Shown here piece by piece: positions 3,238-22,299 of a stretch of DNA of 22,898 nucleotides (its first letter is position 1; each line of letters opens with the position of its first letter). The stretch is from a bacterium (GTDB lineage: Bacteria > Electryoneota > JAOADG01): contig JAOADG010000007.1 of assembly GCA_026417415.1 (NCBI GenBank), forward strand, positions 1-22,898, written 5' to 3'. The notes under the pieces are model-generated. The model was not told the DNA's origin. It was given only the letters and a program-made list of their open reading frames with translations, and made no database searches. The translations under genes were made by a program, and so were the position numbers.

Positions 3238-3252
3238 AAGGTCTCCAACGAT

Positions 3253-6200
3253 TTATTTGAGTAGAATTGCTTTTCTGACCAGTGTGGTTTGATTGGCAGT
3301 CAGTTGATAAAAATAGATACCGGATGGGAGTGAAGCCGCATTCCACATCACTTGATAGTTTCCAGCAAGTTTTCTTTCATTGAGCAAGGTTTTGATTTGG
3401 CGTCCTAAAGCATCATAAATCGTGAGGTTCACCCAAGCAGCATAAGGAACATCAAATTGGATGGTAGTAATGGGGTTAAACGGATTCGGTAAGTTTTGAT
3501 AGAGATGAAACTCACGCGGGAGCAGCGCAAGTTCATTGCTTCGGTTGGCACTAACATTTGACACCAGTAAAATGGGAATGCTAAAGGGCAGATTAATTGC
3601 ATTCCCCGTAAAACGCAACCAGCCCCGCGCAGTATCATTCAAAACCATTCCCATGGTGGACCATAGAATGGACATGTTTTGTGATTGATTGGGAGCAAGC
3701 GTAAAAGTCGTAGTATTAAGTACTCCCCAGCCCCGCTGAGGTGAGAAGCGGATGGCATGACTAGAGGGAATGGATTGATTGTGATACAATGTGAAATAGT
3801 AGTTACGATTGGCAGATTGCAACCCGATGGTCTGTCCAAAAGCAGGAACTTGTAGGGTTTGGTACTGAAAATCAATGGTCCCATTAGAATAGAGAATACA
3901 CTCAAAAGTTAAATTGGAATTGGGTTGCCCGTTTATCGTTACGTTAAGCCAAGCAAAAACTACCCGCTGATTGATGGTGTCCATGAAAACCCTTGTACCC
4001 CCTTCCGGTACAACCAGATCATCCCAATAAGGAGCGATGAATGCAGCTTGTTCCCAATAGGGCAAGGTTTGATTGGTAGGCACTGCACTTTCATTAGGAT
4101 TGGTTAAGGATAGCCAACCATTGGTACAAATCCAAGCCGAATCGTACGTATTCCCAAAATAGGGAAAAGAGAAGGGGAGTGGAATCGCATCGGAGGTAAA
4201 ATCATTTTGCCAAACATAACTGTTCCCTGCTTCGGGGTTAATCCAATTATAAACGGGACCATTGGGCTCATTGCTTTGCCTACAAGTCATGCGATTCGGG
4301 ATCAAGTCAAGCTGCAGTGAACCCTGAATAGATGTACTCCCGATATTTTGTAGAGTGTAATTGGTACGAAGGGTGTCGTTGGGAGGGAGCGATAGATTGA
4401 TATTGGGTACAGAAAATTGCAACGTACCGGGACCGACGATAACAAAACTTGCTATTGAAACGGTTTGGCTACTTTGGTCTAAGGTAGAAATTCGTAATCG
4501 CGCATTGTTGGAGGAAGCACCACTCACAGTCCAACTTTGACTCCCATCGTTGGGAGTAGCGCTAAACAATGTTTCCCAACTGCCAGTGGGATAATTGCGG
4601 TTAAGTTCAATACGAACTTGGGAGGCACTAGGCCGACCAGTCCACTGAATAGTAAAGGGCTGATTGTACCGCAATGTATCGTACGGGTTGGGTGAAACAA
4701 TATGAAGCAAAGTATCCGGGGGAATGGTGGTAAAAAGGATTGCGCTATTGGCGGTAGTACTATTGGGAATTGGGGCACTCCCATTGGAATACACATTGTT
4801 AAAACTGTAGGATAAAGCGCGCGTATAAGTACCATCTGCAATACCGATGGTAGCATAGTTAGGTTCTAACGGATCGCTATATTGGTCATTATGAAACCGC
4901 TGATACTGAAAGAGGATCGGACTATCCCCTGTAGGGGTGCGATAATAACGTGGATCATACAGGATTAGCTGAAAGCGATTTTCTCGTCCAGCCCCCCACA
5001 TACAGTACATATACCAAGAGATTACCAAACGATGATTGGTTGCATCATACCAAGAATACACTCCTCCAAAATCATCCCAAGTCACCAATTCAAACCAAAA
5101 CGGTGCAATTAGATTACGTGGCCCCTCTTGAGAAGGGAGTTGCCAGTTACGAAAATTGTCATAATGTGGTTGTGCTCCCAAAGCCGCCCAGCCGTTGGAG
5201 CATACGGTAATCGAATCGAAGAGGTTGCCATAGTATCGTACGCGGAATGGGAGAGGGATTACTGTGGAGCGATCATAAGTATAATTGGTATCGTACAATC
5301 CAAGATTGATGCCACTGCCACCCCATGCAGGGTTGATTTCAACCCAATTGAAGGTAGGACGTTGGGAATAGCTCACATCGCTGTTGTCGTAAGCCCAATA
5401 TCCGTAGGGATCAGGTCCTGTGGGATCGGTAGTAACGCGACTCCCACAAGTAAGTGAAAACGATAAGGTATCGCTCTGATTTTGATAAGACAAAAGGACT
5501 GAAAATGGAATCACTGTTCCCCGAATGGTAGCAGGACTTGAAGCAATTTGCCAAGCGCAGGTCCCTTGCGCATCACTCCCCAGTGCCGCAATGATGCGCA
5601 AATCATTTTGTACAGAAGCAAACAGAGATTGGGGAATGAGTCGCAAATTCAGTGGTGCACTCATAGCATACCCGCGATTTACCACCCGCAAGGAGCAAGT
5701 CACAGTACTCCCGGGCTGCCAAGTTTGCCCGCTGGGTATCCAATGGGCAAGATACTCAATTTGAGGTGCTCTTACCTGTAAAGTACAGGCGCGCTGGGAA
5801 ACAACCCCAAACACCGAATCTTGCCAGAATAGCAACACTGCGCCGTTTCGTACTTGGTTAGAGATGAAAAGCCGAAAAGTCGCAACTTGATTGGTTTGTG
5901 GATCCCAGATGGGAAAAGTAGGATTACCAGATACCACAATCTGGGGATTGGTGGATACCATACGTATCCCCGCATTGGTAAGTTGCATGGTACTAGTGTT
6001 GGTCAAGGTTAGCATCAGATCCAACACTTCGCCGGGTTCAGCAAGACCATTGTTGTTCCCAAAACGCCCTTGGGTCTGATCGTCTAATAAAGTGGCATTG
6101 CTGAAAGCAATGGGGCTTCCTGCAGTAACACTCAAAGTGTCTATACGAGTTAAGAAATTTCTTTTGCTTTCGCCGTTGGTAACGGTAAGAATAGCATTCC

Positions 6201-8142
6201 CACTTAACAAGGGAGTAAAGTTTAGGTGTACCGTACCATTGGCATCGGTATAACCACGCGCATAAGATAGGGTTTGACCGCTACTATTGCGTTGTACCAA
6301 CGTGACCATTACTTTTTCAAGGGGTTGTTGATCTTTGGTCACGCGAATTGCGGCATATGACGTGCCAGATACCAACGTGGGGTAAGACACTTGAACGCTT
6401 TTCGGTACACCCGTCCAAAGATTAGCGGTCCCGTCCCCCATTACATTGTTCCAAATGAAAAAGTTGTAAATACCGTTTGGATTTTGAGTCCCTAAATTGA
6501 TCCACAACCTTAATTTTCCGCCAAAATAGAGCGTTCCGGCGTAGCGCCCTTGCATCACTCCCAAAGTATAATATGTCCCGGTTGCAATACAATTGTTGGG
6601 GGAGGGATGGGTTTCATAGGATTGAGAAGCCATAGCGGTAATTGCACCACTGGGAGCAGTGGGAGAACCCAAACGGGTTAATGCTTCGTGCACGCCGGTG
6701 GTAGATGAGCCATACCATTCACCGGTCATACAACTCATATTAAAGGCAAAAAAGGGACGAAAGGTATTGGTCAAGTTTTGTACCTCGGTGGGACTGATTT
6801 GACTGATAAACGACGGTCGGTGTGCCCAAAAGAGTGCACCGGGGTTCAAACGTGAATTGATAAGCGAGGTAGAGACCACGCCGTTGTGTTCATCGTAATA
6901 GATGGTTCGCAGACCCACGGTACGCATCATTTCGTTACAAAAACGAATGGCAGGGCGATTGGAATACACTTCATTTGAGATACCCGCATACCCCCAACCG
7001 CGGTTGTACCAATTGGTATCTGCCATATACGGCGTTCGTTCGTATTGCAGGGTGCGGTTAATCATGGTTTGAAATTGGGAGAGGGTGTTTCCGGAAAAGC
7101 GGCTGATGGTAATGTCGGCAAGCATATCGTTGCCTGCCAATTGCGTATAAGGGTGATCACTGGGTTCATTGTTGATAAAATAAGTGGGCAAATCGTAGCC
7201 ACTGGTCCCACCATCGCCTACCAATAAGACAAATTCTAAGCGGGTGTCCGTTTGATTGTAATACTGTGTAATCAAAGATTGGAGGTCCGCGGTGCTGGTC
7301 CCTTGATTTAAGGGAGCAGTTAAAATCACATTCCGACCTGTTTGCTCTTTCCACTGGACAAAGCTGGAAAGTAAAGAGTGGAGCGAACTTCGTGCGATAA
7401 TCAATAACGAGCCGGGGAGCGCTTGTGATGCTTCTTCACACAGTTCATCGCTTCCAAGAATCTGTGCGTACAAGGGTGCGAAAGAAGGGACGGGTTGACG
7501 GGGCAAATGCAGTTCATTTTCACCCCTTCCACCTATAGGGACAATCTCTACTTCTGCAGAAGTGTAAATGCGTAAGGTTTTGGTGACGGGGTTATATTGC
7601 AGCGGTTGATACAAAAGGGTGGTCACACGGGCATCACGTAATATCGCAGGTGATCCCAAACGTACTAAAGTATTGGGAAAGAAATCGTTGGTGGAAAAGG
7701 TTTCAGCATCAAAAACCACTCTTGAAGTATCGCCAATTAAGGGCTGCTGGGGCATAATGTCTAAATTGGATTGCTCGGTAAAGGTCGCTTGGTGGATGCG
7801 AATCTCCACATTCCCAAAATTGGGAAGACGTATGGCGCGTGCCACTGCCGGCAATGAGGGTTTGCCATCTTCCCAAAGGCGCGTTTCCCCTTCAATGACG
7901 TAATGTTGGTATGGTTTTCCTTGAAATTCCACTGTTTGTTGTTTGATGTTAATTTCCCCAAAGGATAGACGCAAATGACCCACATCCAACACTTCAACTT
8001 GCAAAGGTACCGTGGAGGGATTGGGTACACCTAAGGTAGCATCTAAATCGCGCGTCCACTGGATCGCCAAAGCAACGGAGTGAAAACCAAGCCAGCCCAA
8101 CAAGCATATTCGCAAGTAAATCAAGGAACGGAATGGAACCAT
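3253..8142 (-). CDS. Gingipain-like C25 family cysteine protease with type IX secretion sorting tail
   Basis: This is a 1629-residue secreted protein, numbered here from the ATG at 8142. Order: signal peptide (about 1-26); gingipain-type propeptide region (about 40-235); C25 peptidase core (about 240-585) with SLLIIA, VLLVGDGG and LADITISRFSG strands; Cys471 in FNMSCMTGEW as expected nucleophile; a post-catalytic Ig-like domain (about 590-680). Then come beta domains including two copies of a nidogen-like module (about 905-1140 and 1295-1475, both with IPLPF...YFGN/YYGN...C(S/T)NGW), and the sorting tail (about 1544-1629; HLYQNLPNPFNP, SGIYFYQL, KAILLK). The usual Gly-His-Gly histidine motif is missing: the equivalent stretch reads GALFWAHRPS (His441), so activity is uncertain. 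An ATG 18 nt upstream (8160) is in frame, but a perfect AGGAGG lies between the two, six bases before 8142, which makes 8142 the better start. The tail predicts export through the type IX system to the cell surface. Confidence 0.88.
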   Translation of the reverse strand: MVPFRSLIYLRICLLGWLGFHSVALAIQWTRDLDATLGVPNPSTVPLQVEVLDVGHLRLSFGEINIKQQTVEFQGKPYQHYVIEGETRLWEDGKPSLPAVARAIRLPNFGNVEIRIHQATFTEQSNLDIMPQQPLIGDTSRVVFDAETFSTNDFFPNTLVRLGSPAILRDARVTTLLYQPLQYNPVTKTLRIYTSAEVEIVPIGGRGENELHLPRQPVPSFAPLYAQILGSDELCEEASQALPGSLLIIARSSLHSLLSSFVQWKEQTGRNVILTAPLNQGTSTADLQSLITQYYNQTDTRLEFVLLVGDGGTSGYDLPTYFINNEPSDHPYTQLAGNDMLADITISRFSGNTLSQFQTMINRTLQYERTPYMADTNWYNRGWGYAGISNEVYSNRPAIRFCNEMMRTVGLRTIYYDEHNGVVSTSLINSRLNPGALFWAHRPSFISQISPTEVQNLTNTFRPFFAFNMSCMTGEWYGSSTTGVHEALTRLGSPTAPSGAITAMASQSYETHPSPNNCIATGTYYTLGVMQGRYAGTLYFGGKLRLWINLGTQNPNGIYNFFIWNNVMGDGTANLWTGVPKSVQVSYPTLVSGTSYAAIRVTKDQQPLEKVMVTLVQRNSSGQTLSYARGYTDANGTVHLNFTPLLSGNAILTVTNGESKRNFLTRIDTLSVTAGSPIAFSNATLLDDQTQGRFGNNNGLAEPGEVLDLMLTLTNTSTMQLTNAGIRMVSTNPQIVVSGNPTFPIWDPQTNQVATFRLFISNQVRNGAVLLFWQDSVFGVVSQRACTLQVRAPQIEYLAHWIPSGQTWQPGSTVTCSLRVVNRGYAMSAPLNLRLIPQSLFASVQNDLRIIAALGSDAQGTCAWQIASSPATIRGTVIPFSVLLSYQNQSDTLSFSLTCGSRVTTDPTGPDPYGYWAYDNSDVSYSQRPTFNWVEINPAWGGSGINLGLYDTNYTYDRSTVIPLPFRVRYYGNLFDSITVCSNGWAALGAQPHYDNFRNWQLPSQEGPRNLIAPFWFELVTWDDFGGVYSWYDATNHRLVISWYMYCMWGAGRENRFQLILYDPRYYRTPTGDSPILFQYQRFHNDQYSDPLEPNYATIGIADGTYTRALSYSFNNVYSNGSAPIPNSTTANSAILFTTIPPDTLLHIVSPNPYDTLRYNQPFTIQWTGRPSASQVRIELNRNYPTGSWETLFSATPNDGSQSWTVSGASSNNARLRISTLDQSSQTVSIASFVIVGPGTLQFSVPNINLSLPPNDTLRTNYTLQNIGSTSIQGSLQLDLIPNRMTCRQSNEPNGPVYNWINPEAGNSYVWQNDFTSDAIPLPFSFPYFGNTYDSAWICTNGWLSLTNPNESAVPTNQTLPYWEQAAFIAPYWDDLVVPEGGTRVFMDTINQRVVFAWLNVTINGQPNSNLTFECILYSNGTIDFQYQTLQVPAFGQTIGLQSANRNYYFTLYHNQSIPSSHAIRFSPQRGWGVLNTTTFTLAPNQSQNMSILWSTMGMVLNDTARGWLRFTGNAINLPFSIPILLVSNVSANRSNELALLPREFHLYQNLPNPFNPITTIQFDVPYAAWVNLTIYDALGRQIKTLLNERKLAGNYQVMWNAASLPSGIYFYQLTANQTTLVRKAILLK

Positions 8143-8148
8143 CTTTAC

Positions 8149-8154
8149 CCTCCT
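8149..8154 (-). promoter_or_regulatory. Ribosome binding site that fixes the C25 protease start
   Basis: A perfect AGGAGG is followed by six bases (GTAAAG) and the ATG at 8142. The longer frame from the ATG at 8160 would place this site inside codons 3-4, so the shorter start is preferred. Confidence 0.85.
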
Positions 8155-8171
8155 ATTCATAAGTGGAATTT

Positions 8172-8243
8172 ACGAAACCAAAATAATGCAACTTACAATG
8201 TAAAAAGAAAAATGGAAAAAGAAAAATCAAAACTTGGTTTCGT
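8172..8243. repeat. Spaced 10-bp inverted repeat in the C25/CapA divergent region
   Basis: The arms ACGAAACCAA (8172-8181) and TTGGTTTCGT (8234-8243) are perfect reverse complements 52 nt apart, with centres 62 bp apart (about six helical turns). The right arm ends four bases before the -35 box of the CapA promoter; the left arm lies 30 nt before the C25 start codon. A palindrome, TTACAATGTAA, sits between them at 8193-8203. This resembles a two-site operator shared by the divergent genes; it could also be a weak long-loop hairpin. No regulator gene is nearby. Confidence 0.45.
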
Positions 8244-8247
8244 CCAC

Positions 8248-8276
8248 TTGTACCCACCGAATTTGTTTGATATATT
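8248..8276 (+). promoter_or_regulatory. Sigma70-like promoter for the CapA-family gene
   Basis: TTGTAC (8248-8253), a 17-base spacer, then TATATT (8271-8276). Transcription would start near 8283, giving a leader of about 50 nt before the ATG at 8334. The same -10 hexamer and spacing appear before the TPR gene. Confidence 0.6.
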
Positions 8277-8333
8277 CTTCAGAAAATATCGCTTACAAAT
8301 CCATTCCGTCCTTTCAGTTGGTTGAGGTACACT

Positions 8334-11258
8334 ATGAGCAAAAGGTATGTTCCAAATGTTTCCTTTGTATTAAGATGGATTTTCCTTTGGTTGTGCTTTG
8401 CATCACCCCTTTTTGCGTTACCTACACCCGAATGGCAAGCGATCCAAACACGTGAAATCACCATTATCCCCCTCTCTGAGTCAGCGGTAACACTCCGATG
8501 GATGCGGTTTTCGGGTGAATATGGTTGGAAGGTGTACGGTTCCCCGAATCCATATTTACCACTATCGGAGTGGAGCTTATTAACCCGTACGGATCGTTTG
8601 GAGATTACCCTTACCGGCTTACCGGGACGCGGATATTTTCGTATTGAAAACGATCCGAATGCACCGCGAACCAATGAAATCTTGTGGATCGGTTTTACAG
8701 GCAACCCAACCTTTCTTAGTTACGGCAACGAAGATCAAGAGCCCAATGGATATGCCATTACCAACGATGGTGATGACAACACCAATGCTTTGCGTTTAAC
8801 AGGGAACACTTGGAAAATGATGGCGATAGACCCACCACGTCCGATCCATCGTGATTTTGCAGTCGGTGCCTCCATCTTTCGGGAACGACGTTCGGAATGG
8901 CAAGCCATCGGTTTTTTGGATTCGAGTGGACGCTCTGTGTGGTTCGGTTTTGGTGCAAAAGAGACGCGCTGGTCCGATACGGTTCATTCCACTTGGCAAG
9001 AGGTCCCACCTTACAATTTTTGGTCCAGATGGCGAATGGATGTGGGTGAGCAGTTTATTCGCGCATACCGTCGGAACGGTTTGCTGACTCATCTTTTATT
9101 TGCTAATGACAACGATACTACTAACCCGCGTGGGATCTGGAAAGTTAGCCGCATCACCGATGCAAGTGGTGATCAATACAACATTCCACGACTCACGGTA
9201 CGTTATCAACGTCTCTCGGAAAACACCATTCTTTTAGAAGCATTGAACAATGGCCAACGGATAACGCGAGGCACGGTTTATTGGGATGGCGATTATGGTG
9301 TAGCATCCACCGGTGCTCAGACGCAACTTACCTTTCCTACCGGGGGTCAAAAGCGGATTTTGTGCCGCTGGAAAGATACCGATCGCTCCGAACGCTGGAC
9401 GTGGATACCCATCACCATCAACCTTCCGGAACCTGTTCGCACCGCTTTTACCTATTGCGGAGTTGGGGACATAATGATTGCACGTCGTTATGAAACTGAA
9501 GGATATATTGCGCAGTATGGTGCTGATGGATTATGGAATGGCGTGCGTAACTATTTAACCAGTTTCAATTTGGTTACAGGCAATACGGAATGTGCTTATG
9601 CATTGTCCGGCACGCCTCATCCCAATAAAACCTATCTGTTCAAAGGTCAACCCTCGTATGTAGGTGCGATTGTGCGTGGTGGTATTCAAGTGGCATCACT
9701 GGCAAACAACCACACGGGCGATTATGGCGATGATGCTTTGCGAGAGACCTTCTACCATTTTGAAAGCAATGGGTTGCTCTATTGTGGTGCGGGTATGAAC
9801 GATGAGGAAGCATGGCGTCCTACCATTGTCTATCGCGGTGGACAGCGGATCGGAATTTTGGGATATTGTACATTAACAGGGCGCGAACAAAATCAGCCGC
9901 CCTATTTAGAAGCGGGTCCAAACAAAGGCGGTTTCCGCTGGGCAACCCGTGAAAATATTCAGCGTGATTTTGCCATTGTGCGTCCGATGGTGGATATTTT
10001 AATCATTCAATTCCACGTTGGGTATATTGAATATACCACCGAACCTGATTTTTTGACCCAACCATCTACCATTGTAGATACGACCGGCTGGGATTCCGAA
10101 GAAGTCATTGCGGATACCAATGCGGTCAGTTTGTCCGATTATATGATTGAGAATGGTGCTGATTTGGTGATTTGCCACGGTCCACATGTTCCGCAGGCAG
10201 TGGTGAGACGTGCAGAGAATAAATTCATTGCCTATTCTTTAGGCAACTTTTTGTTTGATCAATACCTTCCTGAAACCTTTCCAACCATTACGTTTGAAGC
10301 CGATTTCAATCGTTTTAGTCAAGTTCGTGAAGCAAGAATTCGGCCGTTTTTTATAGACAACTATATGCCAGGACCTGCACGGGGCTTGTTAGCCAAGCGG
10401 ATTCTGAATCATATTGCCAGTTTGTCCTATGAACGTGGCACCATGCTGGTTGAGCCACCTGATACCGGTTTGGTGCGGATTGTATCGCGTGTAGGAGAAT
10501 ACCAACGGATTGGTTTTCCTGCAGAGACGCTTAGCATTCCCTTGCGTACGGTTGGAAACTATCGGATTAGCGCACCTTATGCTTTGGATGCTGGCGTGAT
10601 GATTGAACAGGTGACCATACTTCCACCTACAGGTGCCACCAGTGTTCAGTATCGGCTTGGCATTGACCAACTTTGGGGGGTTGGAAATATGGAAAATGAA
10701 GGGGCTCCGACCACCTTTGAATTTGAAGCAGGCGAATCCTTTGATGATTCCTTAGCGTTCACAGGCAGCCGTTCCATTCGTATTCGGCGTTCTTCTGGTA
10801 CTGCTACCATGACTGTACCGACTTTTCGTAGGCACGCTATAAATCGCAACCAAAATTACACGTTGGTAGGTTCCATTTTTCCGGGCGCCATTAGTGGAAG
10901 TAACATTCAGTTAAATTGTTACAATAGCCGTATAGGGGGCACCAATACTGGCAACGTGACGGTATTTACTGTGAATGCCGGCAATCAATGGGTCACCGAT
11001 TTTGCAGACATTACTTGGCCTAACAACACGGTTTGCACGCTAATCCGGTTGCGGCTTGCCAGCGGCGGTGCAACCACTTCCTATTTTGATGATGTGGCGC
11101 TTGTCTTGTGGGGCACCAATTGGGCAACTGCCACTCAATTCACTTTGCCCAATCCACATCGTTGGACACACATCCAATTGCGTACCTCTCAGATCGAATC
11201 GAGCGGTGACGTTAGGTTGGTCGTGCAACGTGCAAAGTATGTTGCACTTACGAGATAG
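8334..11258 (+). CDS. Secreted CapA/PgsA-type metallophosphatase-fold protein with extra beta modules
   Basis: This 974-residue protein has a signal peptide (about 1-28, ending SPLFA). An N-terminal FN3-like stretch follows (about 32-106), then a beta-rich region (about 115-295) resembling a laminin-G/glycan-binding fold. An Ig-like segment (about 300-365) precedes the PGA_cap/CapA domain (about 370-660). That domain shows the family's metal-site motifs in order: VGDIMI (Asp379), GNTEC (Asn417, Glu419), LANNH (to His460), FHVGYIEY (His561), CHGPH (His615, His618) and SLGNFLFDQ (about 636-644). The rest (about 750-974) holds a jelly-roll-like carbohydrate-binding module near 770-930. CapA proteins take part in poly-gamma-glutamate or capsule synthesis and resemble calcineurin-type phosphoesterases. 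No capB, capC or pgsB-like partner is present, so polyglutamate synthesis is not supported and a periplasmic or surface hydrolase acting on a polymer is equally possible. A GAGG six bases before the ATG at 8334 favours it over the in-frame TTG at 8322. There is no type IX sorting tail. Confidence 0.82.
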   Translation: MSKRYVPNVSFVLRWIFLWLCFASPLFALPTPEWQAIQTREITIIPLSESAVTLRWMRFSGEYGWKVYGSPNPYLPLSEWSLLTRTDRLEITLTGLPGRGYFRIENDPNAPRTNEILWIGFTGNPTFLSYGNEDQEPNGYAITNDGDDNTNALRLTGNTWKMMAIDPPRPIHRDFAVGASIFRERRSEWQAIGFLDSSGRSVWFGFGAKETRWSDTVHSTWQEVPPYNFWSRWRMDVGEQFIRAYRRNGLLTHLLFANDNDTTNPRGIWKVSRITDASGDQYNIPRLTVRYQRLSENTILLEALNNGQRITRGTVYWDGDYGVASTGAQTQLTFPTGGQKRILCRWKDTDRSERWTWIPITINLPEPVRTAFTYCGVGDIMIARRYETEGYIAQYGADGLWNGVRNYLTSFNLVTGNTECAYALSGTPHPNKTYLFKGQPSYVGAIVRGGIQVASLANNHTGDYGDDALRETFYHFESNGLLYCGAGMNDEEAWRPTIVYRGGQRIGILGYCTLTGREQNQPPYLEAGPNKGGFRWATRENIQRDFAIVRPMVDILIIQFHVGYIEYTTEPDFLTQPSTIVDTTGWDSEEVIADTNAVSLSDYMIENGADLVICHGPHVPQAVVRRAENKFIAYSLGNFLFDQYLPETFPTITFEADFNRFSQVREARIRPFFIDNYMPGPARGLLAKRILNHIASLSYERGTMLVEPPDTGLVRIVSRVGEYQRIGFPAETLSIPLRTVGNYRISAPYALDAGVMIEQVTILPPTGATSVQYRLGIDQLWGVGNMENEGAPTTFEFEAGESFDDSLAFTGSRSIRIRRSSGTATMTVPTFRRHAINRNQNYTLVGSIFPGAISGSNIQLNCYNSRIGGTNTGNVTVFTVNAGNQWVTDFADITWPNNTVCTLIRLRLASGGATTSYFDDVALVLWGTNWATATQFTLPNPHRWTHIQLRTSQIESSGDVRLVVQRAKYVALTR

Positions 11259-11289
11259 TTAGTCCTCTTTCAACACACCATTTTGGTAC

Positions 11290-11311
11290 CCCACCTCCTT
11301 CGGGAGATGGG
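11290..11311 (+). terminator. Rho-independent terminator after the CapA-family gene
   Basis: The hairpin has a 9-bp stem (CCCACCTCC/GGAGATGGG, one C-A mismatch) and a TTCG tetraloop, followed by the T-rich ATTTATCTT. It lies 31 nt after the stop codon and separates this gene from the porin unit. Confidence 0.65.
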
Positions 11312-11364
11312 ATTTATCTTCATCAAACCCGCGTCACTATTCTCTTTGAATAACACTCATAATT

Positions 11365-11396
11365 TCTTAACAATATCTTTGTAAAATTTGTTAAGA
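11365..11396. promoter_or_regulatory. Perfect 9-bp inverted repeat upstream of the phosphate porin; candidate Pho-type operator
   Basis: The arms TCTTAACAA (11365-11373) and TTGTTAAGA (11388-11396) are perfect and separated by 14 nt. Read on the minus strand, the element contains TTAACA and TTTACA nine bases apart, similar to TTnACA half-sites of PhoP boxes (known from Bacillus, where spacing is 11). TTAACAAT occurs again at 12792-12799 before pstS. Binding by a PhoB/PhoP-type regulator is inference from the neighbouring genes. Confidence 0.4.
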
Positions 11397-11454
11397 TGCT
11401 TTTTTACGATACCATTTCGTTAGCAAAAGCACGAATTTCAACCATTCTAAATGT

Positions 11455-11459
11455 AGGAG
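11455..11459 (+). promoter_or_regulatory. Ribosome binding site that fixes the porin start
   Basis: AGGAG lies five bases before the ATG at 11465. An in-frame ATG at 11396 has no such site, lies in the inverted repeat and would put a polar segment ahead of the signal peptide. Confidence 0.75.
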
Positions 11460-11464
11460 ATTCA

Positions 11465-12784
11465 ATGATTAAAAAATCGTTTGGTTCAAACTGGTGGATA
11501 GTATTGATGTTAGGGTGGATGTGGATGAATGTGAGTTGGTCAAGCGAAACCACAGATGAATCATTTACCGAAATGAAGGGGCATATAGATGCCATCAATG
11601 AAACCTTAACAGAAGTAAAAAACACGGTAGATAAGTTAAATAAAATCAAAGTTAGCGGTTATGTACAAGCCCAATGGCAAGTGGCAGATGGTGATGGAAT
11701 CGCTTCCTTTGCTGGTGGCAATTTTCCAATGGGCGTGCATCAAAGATTTGCGATTCGTCGCGGACGCGTAAAATTTGCTTATGAAGAAAAATTCTCTACC
11801 TATGTGGTTCAGTTGGATGTTACCCAAGGAGGAGTCAGAATCAAAGATGCTTACTTGCGAGTGAATGATCCCTGGAGATTAGGATTGGCACTAACTGCCG
11901 GTGGATTTGATCGTCCCTTCGGATTTGAAATTTCCCATTCTTCTGGTTTACGTGAATCACCGGAACGTTCACGAATTTTCCAAACCTTGTTTCCTGGCGA
12001 GCGAGATATTGGTTTTCAGTTCAGTTATGCAAATGAAATGGGTCCTCTTCATTTTCTCAATGCAAAATTCGGTGCATTTAACGGCACAGGGATTGAAGCC
12101 AATGAAAATGATAACCACAAAGATATCATCGGGCGGATTGGTGTAGCGTTGCCTATGTATGAACTGAATATGGCTTTGGATGGTGGTGTGTCGTTGTATA
12201 GGGGTAAAGTGAGAAACAATTCAAAATACTATTATGAAATGGAAAACAAAACGTTCAAATTGGATTCTTCTGCAAGCAACCAATGGAAATATCATGATAG
12301 AACCGTATATGGGGTAGATGTTCAGTATTATGCCGATCTTCCTTACATTGGTGGTTTTCAAGTACGTGCAGAGTACTTGATTGGCAAGCAGCCCTCAACA
12401 GAAAAATCAAATGCAATTTACTTAGGAACGGATGCGAATACACCTCTTTACCAACGTGAAATTCAAGGGTACTATTTCAAACTGATTCAAAATGTCGGTA
12501 CAAAAAATCAATTGGTTGTGAAATACGATACCTTTGATCCAAACACCAAGGTTAGTGGTGCCGATGTGGGTGCCTCTGGAAGTAATTTAACCGCAGCAGA
12601 TTTATCATACACGACCTTAGGGTTTGGAATCATTCACCATTGGGATGCAAATCTAAAAGTGACGCTTTATTATGACAAGGTGACCAATGAAAAAGCCAAT
12701 CAGGCGGCAACAGGTTCATTGGCTCCCTATCGGGAAGATTTGATGGACAATGTTTTTACCGTCCGATTGCAATATCGGTTTTAA
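11465..12784 (+). CDS. OprP/OprO-type phosphate-selective porin
   Basis: This 439-residue outer-membrane protein has a signal peptide at about 1-27 (ending NVSWSS). A short heptad-patterned, probably coiled-coil stretch follows (about 30-58, TEMKGHIDAINETLTEVKNT). The barrel starts at KVSGYVQAQWQ (about 61). FAIRRGRVKFAYEEKF and LTAGGFDRPFGFEISHSS are typical of the phosphate-selective porin O/P family (Porin_O_P). The chain ends in Phe (VRLQYRF), the usual signal for BAM-dependent barrel insertion. OprP forms anion-selective trimers that take up phosphate across the outer membrane. The gene sits 51 nt upstream of pstS on the same strand, which supports phosphate or polyphosphate as substrate rather than a general porin role. 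Length is close to the family's usual 400-450 residues. Confidence 0.88.
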   Translation: MIKKSFGSNWWIVLMLGWMWMNVSWSSETTDESFTEMKGHIDAINETLTEVKNTVDKLNKIKVSGYVQAQWQVADGDGIASFAGGNFPMGVHQRFAIRRGRVKFAYEEKFSTYVVQLDVTQGGVRIKDAYLRVNDPWRLGLALTAGGFDRPFGFEISHSSGLRESPERSRIFQTLFPGERDIGFQFSYANEMGPLHFLNAKFGAFNGTGIEANENDNHKDIIGRIGVALPMYELNMALDGGVSLYRGKVRNNSKYYYEMENKTFKLDSSASNQWKYHDRTVYGVDVQYYADLPYIGGFQVRAEYLIGKQPSTEKSNAIYLGTDANTPLYQREIQGYYFKLIQNVGTKNQLVVKYDTFDPNTKVSGADVGASGSNLTAADLSYTTLGFGIIHHWDANLKVTLYYDKVTNEKANQAATGSLAPYREDLMDNVFTVRLQYRF

Positions 12785-15698: not shown

Positions 15699-17306
15699 CT
15701 ATTTCAAGTAGGGTTTGAGATTCCGATTTTTCCAAAATTTAGGGAGTGGAAGCAACTCGGCAGGGACTTGCATATCCAACAATTGCTGCCTCTTTATGAT
15801 AAACGTGGGATTAAAATTGTAATGCGGTTGAAAACGGTATTGATCAATAAGAGCAACGGCAATGCGGTAATAGTCGCCTAATGATTTTGTTTTCGTGGTT
15901 ACAAGAACATCTTCGCTAGTAAATTGTGGTAGATTGTAGGTTGATAAAGAAAGGATGATAGCATCCAAACCTTCATTTTCCAACATCCACTCGGTTTGAT
16001 AGAAAAAATCCACGATGGCAAAATCCAACTCTTCGGTATAAAGGATTTCTCTTTCGTGGATGTTTTCAAGTTTTCTGTATAAAGAATGGGCTTCATCCCA
16101 TTTCTTTTCACCGATAAAATAGAATAAACTTTCGCTATAAATTACTTCTTTATTATCCATTTCATGAGTTTCACAGAATTCAATCCCTTTACGAATATCA
16201 AGGTCTGCTTGTTCTAATTGGTCGGTATCGTAATAAAACATACCCCGATGGATATGCAAAATTGCTTGCAGATAAGGAATTTTTACTTGATAAGCCAAAT
16301 CTATGGCGGTATTCACTTCTTCAAAAGCATCTTGATAATTCTTTTCTAAGAATAAAATTTGACTAATCAACAGATGGATGTATGCTTCCGAACGGGGATC
16401 AAGAATTTTTTTAAAAATTTCACACGATTCGACCAATAATGGTTTCACCATAGACAGTTCTTCGTGTGCCCATTTAAAGGTAGCTAAATTGCTAATTGCT
16501 ATCCCTAACATTCTAAGATTGTTGGCTTTACGGGTGCAATCAATCCCCAACTGAAAGTAATCTGGTGCCTTGTGCCAACGGTCGGTCTTACTTAGTAAAA
16601 GTCCTAAGTTGATATAGGCCACCCCTTCCAAATTGATCTCTTGAATGGATTTAGCGAGTTCAACACACTTTTCAAGCAATTTTTCGGCAGCGTGTAGTTT
16701 TCCTTGGGACATTAAAATTTTTGAATAATTGATGGATTGATTTACTTCATTGTAAACATCACCGACTTTATTGGATAGTTCAATCGCTTGACAAAGAAAT
16801 GGCTCTGCATCTTGTTTACGATTGGCTTCAATTAGAATGCATGCAATGTTACCCAGACAGATGGCTTCCAATTTTTGATTACCAATCTCTTGAAAAATGG
16901 TTAATGCTTTTTGTGTAAGTTCAAATGCAGAAGGGATATTGCCTTGCGTTCTGCGTAAATCTCCGAGAGTGCTAAGATACTTGCCATACAAAGTGCGATC
17001 TGCAAAATGCGCAGTTTTTTCAATTCCTAAGATAAGCAACAAATCGGCTGCATCCCATTCACCCATACGGATATAGACCGATGCCAATTTGAATGATAAA
17101 TCGGCTTCAAATTCTTGATCTTGTTGTGATTTGGCGTATTGTATTTCGTTGATTAAAAAATCTTCAAGTTCACGTAATTTACCGCTACGATACAAATTTT
17201 GAAAATGTTGATTGGTACGATAGATTCGCTCTTGGTGTTCATTTGAAAAAAAAGTAGTACCCTGTTGTGATGAATTTGAATCGGGTGCTTTTGGAGATGG
17301 GTTCAT
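15699..17306 (-). CDS. TPR-repeat protein of unknown function
   Basis: This 535-residue protein has no signal peptide or membrane segment and is probably cytoplasmic. From about 60 to 400 it consists of degenerate tetratricopeptide repeats, seen as paired helices with A/G-Y/F spacing (DLSFKLASVYIRMGEWDAAD, KYLSTLGDLRRTQGNIPSAF, AICLGNIACILIEANRKQDA, AYINLGLLLSKTDRWHKAPD). The spacing resembles the TPR_12 repeats of Rap/regulatory and kinase-associated TPR proteins. The last 130 residues are not recognised and no catalytic or DNA-binding domain is visible. The ATG at 17306 has no Shine-Dalgarno, but a good promoter ends about 31 nt upstream, giving a leader of only about 25 nt. Its 3' end faces pstA with a six-base gap. 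A scaffold or signalling role is all the repeats imply. Confidence 0.8.
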   Translation of the reverse strand: MNPSPKAPDSNSSQQGTTFFSNEHQERIYRTNQHFQNLYRSGKLRELEDFLINEIQYAKSQQDQEFEADLSFKLASVYIRMGEWDAADLLLILGIEKTAHFADRTLYGKYLSTLGDLRRTQGNIPSAFELTQKALTIFQEIGNQKLEAICLGNIACILIEANRKQDAEPFLCQAIELSNKVGDVYNEVNQSINYSKILMSQGKLHAAEKLLEKCVELAKSIQEINLEGVAYINLGLLLSKTDRWHKAPDYFQLGIDCTRKANNLRMLGIAISNLATFKWAHEELSMVKPLLVESCEIFKKILDPRSEAYIHLLISQILFLEKNYQDAFEEVNTAIDLAYQVKIPYLQAILHIHRGMFYYDTDQLEQADLDIRKGIEFCETHEMDNKEVIYSESLFYFIGEKKWDEAHSLYRKLENIHEREILYTEELDFAIVDFFYQTEWMLENEGLDAIILSLSTYNLPQFTSEDVLVTTKTKSLGDYYRIAVALIDQYRFQPHYNFNPTFIIKRQQLLDMQVPAELLPLPKFWKNRNLKPYLK

Positions 17307-17337
17307 AAATTTATGATAATTCTATAACGCCATTTGA

Positions 17338-17366
17338 AATATAAATTAGTATTTTGTAAAATGCAA
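17338..17366 (-). promoter_or_regulatory. Sigma70-like promoter for the TPR gene
   Basis: Read on the minus strand: TTGCAT (17366-17361), a 17-base spacer and TATATT (17343-17338). It lies between the terminase stop and the TPR start, so the TPR gene can be transcribed independently of the terminase gene. Confidence 0.6.
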
Positions 17367-17390
17367 GGATTTTTGAAAACATTTGAACTT

Positions 17391-18752
17391 TTACCATTTG
17401 ATACCGGATACTCGCCCTTGGTAATGGGTAGGCGGTTTTTGTTGGATATTGACTGCGAAATATCGCAAAGCATCAACCGTATGATCATAGCTTCCTTTGA
17501 TGGGCTTACCCGTGTGTTCATCGTAGCGATAACTTGACAAGTCGTTGATTAATCGTGAACACTGTGGGCTGATGCGAAGTTGGATTGTTCCATCTGCGCG
17601 TGCAAACATCATCCTTAGCCAATCTAAACCATCTTCTAAAAGCGAACGGCGTTGCATCAGTTTGATCCCTGCACCACTCAGAAAGTCAATCATAGGAATT
17701 CCACTATCGTTTTGTTGTAAGCCGGCAGGGTCACAGCTACTCCAAGTAAACTGTTGTTCTGTAAGTAACCACTTTCCGTCCATCATTCGTATTGCCAACA
17801 ACAGATCATCCCGTGTAGCGTTGGAACCAATCCATTCCTCAAAGACCACAAACTGGGAGGGGGTAATTTCTGCAATCCATAAAACCACAGGGGAGCGATA
17901 GCCAAAATCAATGCTACGAAAGCGTCTTCGTGCAGTATGGACCATTTCTATGGAAACAGGGTAGGGAAGCACATGCTGTTGTGGTGAGAATGCTTCTATC
18001 ACCCGTTGACCGTGGACTTCTTCTAAAGACAACTCATATTCGCGGCGCCATTGTGCTTCGGATAACTCCCGTTTTTGAAGGGTTTGCCATTCTTCACCAC
18101 GATCGGGACGCTCGCTGAAATGAATCCGTTGGAGGGCAAACCCAAACCGCTTCGGATCCGTTACCATCTTACCAAAGAGGTTGTGTTTTCCATTGGGTGT
18201 GCTAATTCCGATAAATTGGGCTTGGCGATCCAATGATGGTGAAATTGCAGACCAAATTTCGTCAGCATTTTCGGTAAAAGCCATTTCATCCCATAAAACG
18301 ATGGTGGGAGCAAAAAAGCGGATCGCTTCAGCCGTTGCAGGAAGTGTTAGAATGCGACTTCCTGAATTGGGGAAGGTCAATTGATTTTTAGTGGCGTGAA
18401 CCTTAAGGTTAAACCACAACGGCAATCGCCACGCCAAATTTCGGATGCGCTGGAGCAGCTCCATTGCACTCCGATGCTCTTTTGACAATAATAGGATTTC
18501 GCTTTTCCAGTGAAAGAGCGATCGGTACAACACCCATGATGCTGCAGCCCAAGTCGCACATACTTGACGTGATTTCAGCACCAAAAGCCGTGGGTGCGTG
18601 TCCATTGCCGTTATCAAGCGGTGTAAGTAGGGAAAAGGGGGAAAGCGTAAGACCCCACGGGTCGGGTGATCGGTAAAGCAGTAATTTTGAATAAAGTCCA
18701 GTGCTTGATTAGAAAGTGATTGGATTTCGTTACGAATAGCGTGTGGTTTCAT
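17391..18752 (-). CDS. Phage-type terminase large subunit (isolated)
   Basis: This 453-residue protein has the two-domain layout of DNA-packaging terminases. ATPase part: VLKSRQVCATW (58-68) matches the Walker-A-like KxRQxGxS/T motif, with Cys65 in the usual Gly place; LLLSKEHRSAMELLQRIR (87-104); Walker B TIVLWDE (150-156); coupling motif GISTPNG (182-188). RNase-H-like nuclease part: RSIDFGYRSPVVLW (279-292, Asp282), SSCDPAG (Asp341) and YDHTVDALRYF (422-432, Asp423/Asp427). In phages this enzyme cuts concatemeric DNA and pumps it into the capsid. Both domains look intact and the length is within the family's range. No small terminase, portal, capsid, integrase or lysis gene lies within several kilobases, so this is a prophage remnant, a domesticated copy or part of a small unrecognised element. 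No Shine-Dalgarno precedes the ATG. Confidence 0.85.
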   Translation of the reverse strand: MKPHAIRNEIQSLSNQALDFIQNYCFTDHPTRGVLRFPPFPYLHRLITAMDTHPRLLVLKSRQVCATWAAASWVLYRSLFHWKSEILLLSKEHRSAMELLQRIRNLAWRLPLWFNLKVHATKNQLTFPNSGSRILTLPATAEAIRFFAPTIVLWDEMAFTENADEIWSAISPSLDRQAQFIGISTPNGKHNLFGKMVTDPKRFGFALQRIHFSERPDRGEEWQTLQKRELSEAQWRREYELSLEEVHGQRVIEAFSPQQHVLPYPVSIEMVHTARRRFRSIDFGYRSPVVLWIAEITPSQFVVFEEWIGSNATRDDLLLAIRMMDGKWLLTEQQFTWSSCDPAGLQQNDSGIPMIDFLSGAGIKLMQRRSLLEDGLDWLRMMFARADGTIQLRISPQCSRLINDLSSYRYDEHTGKPIKGSYDHTVDALRYFAVNIQQKPPTHYQGRVSGIKW

Positions 18753-18806
18753 AACAAGAGGAAAAATTTTTCTTTTAGAAAGGGAAGAAAAAAAAGGGAG
18801 ATACCC

Positions 18807-18834
18807 ATTCTAAAATACGCTGCGACTGCGTCAA
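18807..18834 (-). promoter_or_regulatory. Sigma70-like promoter for the terminase gene
   Basis: Read on the minus strand: TTGACG (18834-18829), a 16-base spacer and TAGAAT (18812-18807); each box is five of six to consensus. The leader would be about 48 nt. One arm of the 9-bp inverted repeat lies wholly within the spacer. Confidence 0.55.
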
Positions 18835-18860
18835 AATTAGACCAGACACAATCGCAGCGT
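18817..18860. repeat. Perfect 9-bp inverted repeat at the terminase promoter
   Basis: The arms ACGCTGCGA (18817-18825) and TCGCAGCGT (18852-18860) are separated by 26 nt, centres 35 bp apart. One arm is between the -35 and -10 boxes of the terminase promoter and the other is 17 bases upstream of the -35, which would suit a repressor pair. Alternatively it folds as a long-loop hairpin ending the CPBP transcript, since its minus-strand 3' side continues ATTTTAG and, 22 nt further on, a run of eight T. Confidence 0.5.
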
Positions 18861-18891
18861 TACAATCATCTAAGGTCAAGCATTGAAGAGG

Positions 18892-21800
18892 TTATCGTTT
18901 GCTGAGTGGAACAGTCGCTTGGGGAGTAGAAAATAACCACCACAACACACTCCCGATTGCGAGGATAATAAACGCAATTCCGTGAAGTAGTACCGTTTGA
19001 TTTTGATACCCTACCGCTTCAACAAAGATTTGTAATGCAGTCAAAACAGCCACTCCTACAGCCACAGCCAAATAGTCGTTGCGGATCACATATGTTAGGG
19101 TAAGATACACCCCCAGCACCAAAACCCCACGTTGCAAAATAACCATCAGCATCTCACGCGCTTCCACCGCTTGGGAAGGTATGATCAACAATACTGAAAT
19201 AACTAATAAAATGCGTTGAAGGGGATTTTGAAATGCAATGCGCCATAAAAAGGACGTAAAGGCAATCATCGCCAAGAGTTGAAAAGCGTTACGTACCCAA
19301 TCCGATAGCATCATCAACATCGGAAAAGGAATGGCCAGCCACTTGGGTAGATCCCAACCGACAAATGCGATCCATTGCGGTTTCCAAGCAGCCAGAGCGG
19401 ATCGTAAAAATTGGACGATCAACCACACCCCGATGCAAAGAAGTGTGGCCAGCAAAACAGATTTGGCTTTCCTCCGTCGTGCTTTGCCTTGAAAAGCGTC
19501 AAGCACATTGGGAAAATACGATAAGACAAAAGCAAGAATCAAAACAAAACTTAAATAGATTACCCCCGAACTTAAAAGCCAAGTGATGAACAGAGTGGTT
19601 TGAAATACACCCCATGGGAGCGTAATCTGCTGAAAATACTGCTCTTTCAGCAAATAAAATTGTGAGGTCTGGCCGATTAGCAATAAAATACCGGGAACTA
19701 AAGAGAGTTGAAACGCTTTTTTCCAAGGGACTTCACCTGTGCGCGTTTTCAGAATTAACAAAACCGCTGCCCATCCGTAGAATAGGCCTAAGATGACCAA
19801 TTTCAAATTGTGCATCACCGTACGAAACAGCGTACTTCCTGTGCGATTGCGTTGCCACTGTTCGGGCAATTTGTGGAATGCTTTATCGGGGATAGTTATC
19901 CAATTGCCTTGTAAGGTGGCTGAAACTCTATATTTGGCTTCACCTAAGTGGCGCGGGTCCTGAGGGCGTGCTTCGTATTGAAAAGAGTGGTCTATACGAT
20001 GGGGAAGTTTATTGGTGGTAAATTCTTTTAACTCAAATTCTGATAACTGGATGCCGCGTTTTGCAAGTTCACTTTCTATGAGTGCTCGTGCCGAATCTTT
20101 GGATAGGGAATCCCCTACCATTTCTTCATAAACGTAAGGGGTAACCAAGCGTACTTTTCCGTTGCGGGAATCCACAGTTACCGTAAAGCGTAAGCGGTTT
20201 TCTGGTTTCCAAAAGCGCACCACCCAACCAGAAACGAAATCATTTTTGGAAAACCAATCATTGACTTTTGGGATAGAGCGCCAGCGTTTTAAGTAATAAT
20301 GAATGGGATGGTCTTTTGCAGCCCCCCCTTCTAAGAATTGAATGTACACACCATTTTCTAAGGTATCCGTGTTTGCCCATCCTGTTGCTCTTAGAGTATC
20401 TTTTGCAATGTTGAGGGCTTGCTCCCTTGAAACGGGAAACTCAATAAAATCGCCTAATTTAGGTATAGGAAGGACAGTTAAGAAAATCCCGATCAGTAGG
20501 ATTATCAACGTCCAGATCGGTTTAACCGTGGGCTGTGGCGCTTGGGTAGATGGTTCTAATTCTTTTAAGTCATCATTCTCATCTATCTCAATGTCTATGT
20601 CTTCAGTTGCTTCTGCTACTTGATCTATTTCACCATTGAGCAAACCGACTTCAGAAGCAAACCCACCTTTAAGAATATAGACCATCAGTGCAACCAGTAA
20701 AGGGATTACCATAATTCCGGTAGCCACAGCTGCAGTAAAAATAAAATACCAGTTATCGCTACGAAAGAGGAGCATTGCCGTATAGAGGGCATCCACCGTA
20801 TAATGCCATACCAACGCTGGGAGTACTCCCCACTTGAGCATTACGTACCCGATAATGATCCCCGCGATCCCAACTTCTAAGCCACGGATATAGAACGGCT
20901 GTTGTGGATAGTTGGAGTGCATAAATCCCCAAATCATAGCCGGGAGGGTTACTGCCAGCCACGTAAAGCGGCCACGAAACAGTTTTTGTAAAAAGGGGAT
21001 GGAAAACACTCTGCTCAAAAACTCTTCGCTTACTGCCGGGAAAAAACCGATGAATAGAACCGCTAACCACGGCATAGCAGTATTAAGTAAATCGGTATAA
21101 GGGACCTCCGAAGGACTCCAAGCACCGTACCTTTGGGACACTAAATAAAATGTTACCTGATAGGCCAAGAAAAAAGCGGTTAGCGTGATCCCTAAATAGA
21201 TCCCTTTGAAAGCGCTTTTGGTTTGCAGACCACGAAGGGTGAAGAGGTTCCGAATGGCAATTTGACCGAACATGCGTTCACGATAGATGGGTTCTGCCCA
21301 TGCGACTAACAGAAAGATAAACCAACCTTGCATCAAAGCGGTCAGAAAACTGGCAAGGAGGATCTGCATCACTTCACCAGAAAAAGAGGAGCTGGTATCA
21401 AAATCATACATGATCAAAGGAAACGTATTCAATTCATTGAATAAAACTAAAATAAAGGCAATGATACCAAAGATTGCGGCTAACTTCCACGGTACGTTCC
21501 GTTTGCGGACATTGATAAAGAAAACCACCACCATTGCTGCAATGGTCAACACAAATCCCACCGTGGCAATCATGGTAATCATTTGGTTGTAACTGCGGAG
21601 TTTTTCGTAGGACGCCATCCATTGTTGAGGGACAAAGAGATATTCGTGATAGCCGTGGATGCGATTCCCAAACACTTTGACTTGGTAGCGATAACTGGAT
21701 TCTTGCAACGGTTCAAACCCTTTGAGGCGCCATTCAAAGGTCCAATCTTCGCGATGAGGAAGGCCCTTTTTACGGGCGTACATCAGTTCTAATGGTTCTA

Positions 21801-22299
21801 TGGAGAGATTCATTACGGATTGCAAAAACTGCTCAGCAAGGGCACGGGCAGAATCTTCGGAAAGCATTGCCCCCATTGCGTTTTCGTCTATAGGGTGGTC
21901 AAAATAGACGATTTTACCTTCCGGCGAAACGTAAACCTTGAACTCTTCTTTGGTAGCGGGTTTGAACCAACGATGTTGCCAATACCACAGTTGAATAGGG
22001 TTACCAAAATACTGACTGGCTTTTTCAAGTCCTAATTCTTTTTCTAAATACAGTTTTGCATGGTTATCGTAATCAAAGCGTGAAGCATGGCGGTACTCCG
22101 AGGGGGGAGGGTTACCGATGTTAGATAGAAACTGGGTTGCGATAGTTTGAGCATCAGAACGGGTATAGCGAAATTGAATAGATGCTTCGGGGAATGCTTT
22201 GTGAAAGTATTTCCAGCTGAACAGGGTACAGCCCACCAAAATGACTGAACAGATCAGCAAGAAGCGAATGTCTTTGCGTTCAAAGGGTATGCGTTCCAT
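18892..22299 (-). CDS. Large CPBP (Abi) family intramembrane protease with duplicated flanking module
   Basis: This 1135-residue polytopic membrane protein has a first helix (about 12-29), an extracytoplasmic domain (about 40-235) and several helices (240-415). The CPBP protease core follows: SEEFLSRVF (Glu425, Glu426, Arg430), WGFMHSNY (His461) and VWHYTVDALY (His499), the glutate/histidine motifs of Rce1-like proteases. After the core comes an acidic cytoplasmic-type linker (about 557-583). A second copy of the extracytoplasmic-plus-helix module follows (about 590-910), then further helices to the end. The copies share LS(E/K)DSARAL (146/732), LPHR (180/765) and VPWK (269/857) at an offset of about 586 residues. 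CPBP enzymes cleave prenylated or membrane substrates or protect against bacteriocins; the substrate here is unknown. AAGGAG six bases before the ATG fixes the start. Typical CPBP proteins have 200-300 residues, so this one is very long. Confidence 0.85.
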   Translation of the reverse strand: MERIPFERKDIRFLLICSVILVGCTLFSWKYFHKAFPEASIQFRYTRSDAQTIATQFLSNIGNPPPSEYRHASRFDYDNHAKLYLEKELGLEKASQYFGNPIQLWYWQHRWFKPATKEEFKVYVSPEGKIVYFDHPIDENAMGAMLSEDSARALAEQFLQSVMNLSIEPLELMYARKKGLPHREDWTFEWRLKGFEPLQESSYRYQVKVFGNRIHGYHEYLFVPQQWMASYEKLRSYNQMITMIATVGFVLTIAAMVVVFFINVRKRNVPWKLAAIFGIIAFILVLFNELNTFPLIMYDFDTSSSFSGEVMQILLASFLTALMQGWFIFLLVAWAEPIYRERMFGQIAIRNLFTLRGLQTKSAFKGIYLGITLTAFFLAYQVTFYLVSQRYGAWSPSEVPYTDLLNTAMPWLAVLFIGFFPAVSEEFLSRVFSIPFLQKLFRGRFTWLAVTLPAMIWGFMHSNYPQQPFYIRGLEVGIAGIIIGYVMLKWGVLPALVWHYTVDALYTAMLLFRSDNWYFIFTAAVATGIMVIPLLVALMVYILKGGFASEVGLLNGEIDQVAEATEDIDIEIDENDDLKELEPSTQAPQPTVKPIWTLIILLIGIFLTVLPIPKLGDFIEFPVSREQALNIAKDTLRATGWANTDTLENGVYIQFLEGGAAKDHPIHYYLKRWRSIPKVNDWFSKNDFVSGWVVRFWKPENRLRFTVTVDSRNGKVRLVTPYVYEEMVGDSLSKDSARALIESELAKRGIQLSEFELKEFTTNKLPHRIDHSFQYEARPQDPRHLGEAKYRVSATLQGNWITIPDKAFHKLPEQWQRNRTGSTLFRTVMHNLKLVILGLFYGWAAVLLILKTRTGEVPWKKAFQLSLVPGILLLIGQTSQFYLLKEQYFQQITLPWGVFQTTLFITWLLSSGVIYLSFVLILAFVLSYFPNVLDAFQGKARRRKAKSVLLATLLCIGVWLIVQFLRSALAAWKPQWIAFVGWDLPKWLAIPFPMLMMLSDWVRNAFQLLAMIAFTSFLWRIAFQNPLQRILLVISVLLIIPSQAVEAREMLMVILQRGVLVLGVYLTLTYVIRNDYLAVAVGVAVLTALQIFVEAVGYQNQTVLLHGIAFIILAIGSVLWWLFSTPQATVPLSKR

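Follow-up and report, generated by a model that had tools for sequence, protein, structure and literature searches.

The terminase gene and its surroundings

We analysed a 22.9-kb stretch of bacterial DNA (the window), which carries an intact gene for a large terminase subunit (TerL). A Pfam scan of the protein gave Terminase_6N above the cut-off (E 8e-5). Its PHROG matches were TerL families, the best being phrog_2 (E 3e-28), and among solved structures T4 gp17 comes closest (E 2e-8 with the single sequence, 6e-21 with the family profile). The terminase reading frame reported in the initial annotation is real. The gene, its downstream neighbour and the motifs located in the TerL alignment are:

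17391–18752, reverse strand: TerL, large terminase subunit of a probable gene-transfer-agent (GTA)-like set (453 amino acids, ATG start, intact)
15699–17306, reverse strand: TPR protein (535 amino acids), directly downstream of TerL
18552–18575, reverse strand: ATPase motif I region of TerL, residues 60–67 (KSRQVCAT; family form KSRQ[MV]xx[TS]W)
18285–18293, reverse strand: Walker B motif of TerL, residues 154–156 (WDE), invariant
17907–17909, reverse strand: nuclease-domain acidic residue D282 of TerL (SIDFGYR), invariant
17730–17732, reverse strand: nuclease-domain acidic residue D341 of TerL (CDPAG), invariant
17472–17474, reverse strand: nuclease-domain acidic residue D427 of TerL (DH..DALRY), invariant

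The TPR gene follows TerL on the same strand after 84 nt. Upstream, at a distance of 139 nt, is the gene for a 1135-residue protein with a CPBP (Rce1-like) domain; a Pst-type transporter is a more distant neighbour. These surroundings are as originally described. Pfam detected no phage domain in the other scanned open reading frames of the window, and the window contains no tRNA gene. A promoter-like sigma-70 site (TTGACG-16-TAGAAT, 18834–18807) is located upstream of TerL, so the proposed promoter has a matching site. However, four such sites were found in the window against 2.9 ± 1.7 expected, which is not above chance. The base composition of the gene is not atypical (46.5% GC compared with 43.6% for the window). 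A plasmid search with TerL gave only weak matches to prophage-type terminases, and a contig-level search for close relatives yielded one locus, in a metagenome-assembled genome deposited as 'Calditrichaeota bacterium'.

The catalytic motifs of the ATPase and of the RNase H-like nuclease were recognized in the initial annotation, and the alignment bears this out. Lys60, Ser61, Arg62, Gln63 and Trp68 of motif I are invariant in the family, as are the WDE sequence and the acidic triad of the nuclease. ATPase and nuclease architecture and motifs are those of T4 gp17-type terminases (PHROG 2, Terminase_6N). Unlike in that type, motif I lacks its glycine family-wide, and identity to the best full-length matches among phage TerLs in GenBank is no more than about 24%. 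The cysteine in KSRQVCATW had been read as a replacement of this glycine. This reading has to be dropped: all aligned family members have Met, Leu, Val, Ile, Phe or Cys at that position and never Gly, so that the cysteine stands for Met or Leu.

Partner genes elsewhere in the genome

The genome of the window (G000) comprises 2.2 Mb in 40 contigs. TerL is present in a single copy, on contig C36. Single genes for the major capsid protein (MCP, on C18) and for a portal, a connector-like protein (c1) and a protease (all on C17) were found elsewhere. C18 also carries a decoration protein. On C17 there are also a further protein (c4), an amidase and putative membrane proteins of small size; cellular genes, among them those for a sensor kinase-like protein and a regulator, are interspersed between these. 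Contig C28 carries a TerS homologue beside genes reading as rsmG, mnmG and mnmE. Since these four contigs are short, the physical spacing of the scattered genes is given at contig level only. The description of a lone terminase accordingly holds for the 22.9-kb contig and fails for the genome. C17, which carries the portal and the protease, also has reading frames that by eye resemble Cas2 and Cas1 (L067, 496–1886).

Only one other genome, which represents another genus, belongs to the family of the window (G001; TerL 56% identical). Its gene order is membrane protein, TerS, TerL and TPR genes. The TerS-like reading frame directly upstream of its TerL matches the TerS on C28 with E 2e-18, and the membrane-protein gene beside it has a homologue beside the TerS on C28. 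In the genome of the window, C28 has the membrane protein and TerS, and C36 has TerL and TPR. Comparison of these two genomes suggests that an ancestral TerS-TerL-TPR block was split by a rearrangement between TerS and TerL in this family, and TerL would look solitary in the window for that reason. The TPR neighbour thus recurs in the only other member of the family. The TPR proteins of the two genomes share only about 21% similarity, so their orthology is not certain. The TPR protein is at most a candidate member of the set.

A conserved head-and-packaging set across the phylum

A first search with TerL covered 61 genomes and gave full-length homologues in most genomes of the same phylum, mostly at about 36–41% identity. 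The counts for the phylum cover 39 genomes. Profile searches of the fetched loci detected TerL in 33 of these 39. The portal likewise occurs in 33, the MCP in 34, and c1 and the protease in 35 each. Nearly all are single-copy; where a core gene had a second entry, this was a very weak match or a split or partial one. Two genomes (G013 and G036) had none of the five core genes, which indicates that the set can be lost.

According to neighbour clustering, most genomes share one arrangement: decoration protein (c6), MCP (c3), c4, connector-like c1, TerS where present, TerL, portal (c2) and protease-like c5. Variable genes follow c5, in some genomes a membrane protein and an amidase. In three genomes (G003, G006 and G008) the coordinates place the cassette genes tens of kilobases apart yet collinear. 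The set genes lie among housekeeping genes in the chromosome, both there and on the four contigs of the window's genome.

The MCP matches phrog_3922 (E 1e-43) and Pfam Phage_capsid_4, and its best identity to a GenBank phage MCP is only about 29%. The portal matches phrog_3753 (E 9e-30) and the decoration protein phrog_4588, and the amidase is also backed by PHROG or Pfam families. The match of c5 is weak (phrog_18299, E 0.08); together with its position in the cassette it hints that c5 may be a prohead protease. A structure model of c1 is of moderate quality (pLDDT 69). Its β-part resembles phage baseplate and tail domains, with matches to the phi812 baseplate (9eui, E 5e-6) and to tail proteins in BFVD. 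Given its position, a C-terminus that appears helical by eye and these β-domains, we describe c1 as connector-like, a tentative label that depends on the moderate model. The AlphaFold model of c4 (about 121 residues) is a β-sandwich (pLDDT 67). A PDB search with the MCP, portal and connector profiles gave nothing, and the MCP and portal profiles matched no chain at E ≤ 1. RcGTA structures are expected in the PDB, and in this respect the set differs from RcGTA.

Further genes recur near the cassette. An XRE-type helix-turn-helix protein was seen in three families (L042, 2719–3156, reverse strand; homologues in G004, G006, G009, G011, G015, G018 and G023) and is a candidate regulator of the system. 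In family f2 (L034, 13011–14416, and homologues) two genes with apparent signal peptides are located between protease and amidase. They encode proteins of 186 and about 285 residues, the latter LamG-like, and occur in several genomes; one of the LamG-like proteins has a match to a PHROG of virion structural proteins.

Vertical inheritance and selection

We compared a tree of the concatenated TerL, MCP, portal, c1 and protease from 33 genomes with the RpoB tree. The two have 25 of 30 splits in common. Shuffling of the labels gave a mean of 0.24 common splits (maximum 3), and shuffling within families a maximum of 17 in 1000 trials. Patristic distances in the two trees correlate with r = 0.94, and all multi-member families are monophyletic in each of the five gene trees.

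Nei-Gojobori dN/dS values were 0.05–0.36 where dS was unsaturated. The dN/dS comparison proposed earlier therefore indicates purifying selection for such pairs in the phylum; within the window's own family dS is saturated. The rate of that family relative to RpoB (2.4–2.9) is at the fast end of the range of the phylum (0.8–3.0), so that some relaxation of selection is possible there. The dN/dS values, the invariant motifs and the congruence with the RpoB tree support long-term maintenance of the gene under purifying selection.

Integrase, replication and tail genes, and mobile relatives

The flanks of the cassette were scanned at 12 loci with 79 flanking reading frames. These are mostly housekeeping genes, together with six amidases and a few helix-turn-helix regulators. 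Among the 25 best-represented PHROG and Pfam families there was no integrase, replication or tail gene. Neither neighbour clustering nor PHROGs revealed tail or receptor-binding genes near the cassette. A functional prophage would be expected to show integrase or replication genes and a tail module at one locus with its head genes; there were none in the scanned reading frames of the window or among the best-represented families of the flanks.

Six IMG/VR contigs contain the cassette. Five are short pieces with 56–72% identity and are probably host DNA. The sixth (L099, 1893–2618) carries a divergent set in which TerL is inverted relative to the portal, with a tyrosine-recombinase-like reading frame nearby; it could be a mobile relative of the set. 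In GenBank, a faecal record named 'Bacteriophage sp.' (MT835508.1, L150) contains a short island of TerS, TerL, portal, protease, MCP and connector at 16031–22134. By its gene content (ribosomal proteins, secY, rpoA) this record is a piece of a bacterial chromosome.

Relatives outside the phylum

A broad sample of 347 genomes from other phyla or groups contained 12 with MCP-like genes. A related MCP is common in a second phylum, to which G333 belongs: of the 80 genomes sampled there, 73 have it, and 72 of these carry it once; the second entry in the remaining genome (G439) is a partial match. In three single-contig genomes of this phylum (G402, L163; G420, L164; G466, L165) a single locus holds the portal, a TerL-like gene, the protease and c1, and decoration protein and MCP were also recognized there in the first two. 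The TerL profile search misses most TerLs of the second phylum, and divergent TerLs adjoin the portal in its complete genomes. A 470-residue BNR/propeller-like protein adjoins the cassette in the single-contig genomes.

In a family represented by G318, also outside the window's phylum, all six genomes have the MCP, once each. Two further genomes (G092 and G235) have close TerLs. At two loci (L159 of G318, 3909–11709, and L160 of G181, 944–8869) the cassette is followed by genes that by eye resemble purC (SAICAR synthetase) and efp (EF-P).

That at least two other groups have single-copy relatives suggests that the lineage is wider than the window's phylum. These relatives might even belong to one ancient, tail-less-looking GTA-like lineage with a compact cassette that became fixed and vertically inherited in several bacterial phyla. 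We offer this as a tentative idea, with its chances somewhat below even.

TerS and a possible mechanism

TerS-like reading frames of 75–105 residues are located upstream of TerL in several families and lack an N-terminal extension that family f6 retains. Families f2 and f4 showed no such frame upstream of their TerL. Identification by profile is weak, with one member matching a TerS PHROG (E 0.005). The TerS of RcGTA lacks a DNA-binding domain, which has been proposed to permit unspecific packaging (PMC6854486). Short TerS proteins without a recognizable N-terminal DNA-binding region would be an indirect hint that random host DNA is packaged here as well.

As annotated, the retained TerS, TerL, portal, connector, MCP, decoration protein and protease are the parts that would be needed for a DNA-filled head. 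We propose the following sequence of events. TerS would bring TerL to cellular DNA at no specific site. The terminase would then cleave the DNA and pump it via the portal into a capsid of MCP and decoration protein, matured by the protease. Packaging would end by a headful mechanism and the connector-like protein would seal the head. Finally, holin-like and amidase genes near the cassette could lyse a subset of the cells, freeing particles filled with host DNA. From these genes we infer particle formation, packaging of host DNA, lysis with release, and transfer in this phylum. A set spread over tens of kilobases or several contigs could hardly fit whole in one particle.

Comparison with known systems

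For comparison we took GTAs as defined by Kogay et al. 2022 (PMC9662315). Their definition includes particle proteins derived from caudoviricetes, and TerL, portal, MCP, decoration protein and amidase do match phage families. It also includes mostly vertical inheritance with co-diversification with the host, as seen here in the shared splits, correlated distances and monophyly. Further elements are particles filled mostly with random host DNA, a gene set of their own too large for complete packaging in one particle, and delivery of the DNA to other cells; the short TerS bears only indirectly on the first of these, and the spread of the set on the second. Chromosomal fixation, scattered loci, co-diversification and the short TerS appear to fit those parts of the definition that can be judged from sequence (PMC9662315).

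Rhodogtaviriformidae (RcGTA, Alphaproteobacteria) likewise have caudoviricete-derived head and packaging genes that are chromosomal, vertically inherited and sometimes distributed over several loci (PMC9662315). The short TerS-like frames of several families parallel their TerS without a DNA-binding domain (PMC6854486). In contrast to RcGTA, the present set belongs to a different host phylum, has no tail genes beside the head genes and is known from genes alone.

FpGTA of Faecalibacterium is encoded by a compact chromosomal TerS-TerL-portal-MCP operon, as here, and combines a TerS without an obvious DNA-binding domain with the lack of a visible tail, both also features of the present set (PMC12946183). 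It is near-universal in its host genus and has its lysis genes at a second locus (PMC12946183). FpGTA is reported from one Gram-positive genus, and the likeness drawn here is one of description. By analogy, the particle encoded here may possibly be tail-less or have a separately encoded tail, as suggested for FpGTA (PMC12946183), or it may be a particle that does not deliver DNA. A third comparison is PBSX of Bacillus subtilis, which is likewise a domesticated phage set in the chromosome. It packages random host DNA and acts as a tailocin (PMC12946183), whereas no tail genes were seen here.

A literature search on GTAs together with Calditrichota, Calditrichaeota or Zixibacteria returned nothing relevant, and a broader search turned up no account of a set like this one; both covered mainly open-access, non-preprint papers. 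The phylum-wide set points to an undescribed GTA-like system in uncultured bacteria.

Interpretation

Taken from sequence comparison, the most probable role of the TerL in the window is that of packaging ATPase and nuclease in a domesticated, caudoviricete-derived and vertically inherited head-and-packaging set, i.e. a GTA-like system. We hold this with good though not full confidence.

A domesticated capsid set could also serve another use, such as PBSX-like killing, a DNA-storage or stress particle, or packaging without delivery. The missing tail and receptor-binding genes near the cassette are in line with this, and, as PBSX illustrates, a GTA-like particle can exist without delivering DNA; delivery by FpGTA is itself unproven (PMC12946183). 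On the other hand, portal, protease and a TerL with intact ATPase and nuclease residues are retained, which implies DNA packaging, and killing of the PBSX type requires a tail, of which none was seen. We regard such other uses as unlikely.

Very unlikely is the decayed prophage with one surviving gene that was considered initially, in which TerL would have survived by chance while the rest of a phage genome degraded. The window has no other phage gene and the set is spread over four contigs, as decay might leave it. Yet MCP, portal, protease, connector, decoration protein, TerS and amidase are present in single copies elsewhere in the same genome, with all core head genes intact. The catalytic residues are invariant, the GC content is not atypical and the genes follow the host tree throughout the phylum. 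This phylum-wide conservation largely refutes the decayed prophage. Homologues in prophages with portal and capsid genes had been named as the mark of a simple remnant. Portal and capsid genes do accompany the homologues; the loci, however, are single-copy and vertically inherited, with no integrase in the scanned neighbours.

Recruitment of TerL alone for DNA repair, recombination or defence, the second initial suggestion, has hardly any probability left. TerL is apart from TerS in the window's genome and stands beside TPR genes in both members of the family, but portal, MCP, protease and connector are present in that genome, and TerL co-occurs and co-diversifies with the portal and capsid genes throughout the phylum, which makes a non-packaging task unlikely. 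Recurrent independent prophages of one phage family infecting the whole phylum, which the phage-like proteins and the six IMG/VR contigs might recall, are close to negligible in view of the single copy in about 85–90% of species, the gene order common across families, the congruence with RpoB, the lack of an integrase among the best-represented families of the scanned neighbours, and the probable host origin of the five short contigs.

For the analysis of such genomes, the set illustrates that a solitary 'phage remnant' gene can belong to a scattered, conserved system, and that short contigs in viral catalogues and 'phage' records may be host chromosome. GTA gene sets have been characterized in very few lineages, and how widespread GTAs are has been called an open question (PMC11841831, PMC12946183). 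A set of capsid and packaging genes that is fixed in a phylum of uncultured bacteria, follows the host tree and is probably shared with other phyla would broaden the known range of GTA-like systems. It would supply profile models for their detection and a test of why cells retain them. If the tentative idea of one ancient lineage is true, the exchange of genes by way of capsids would be a long-established trait of those groups.
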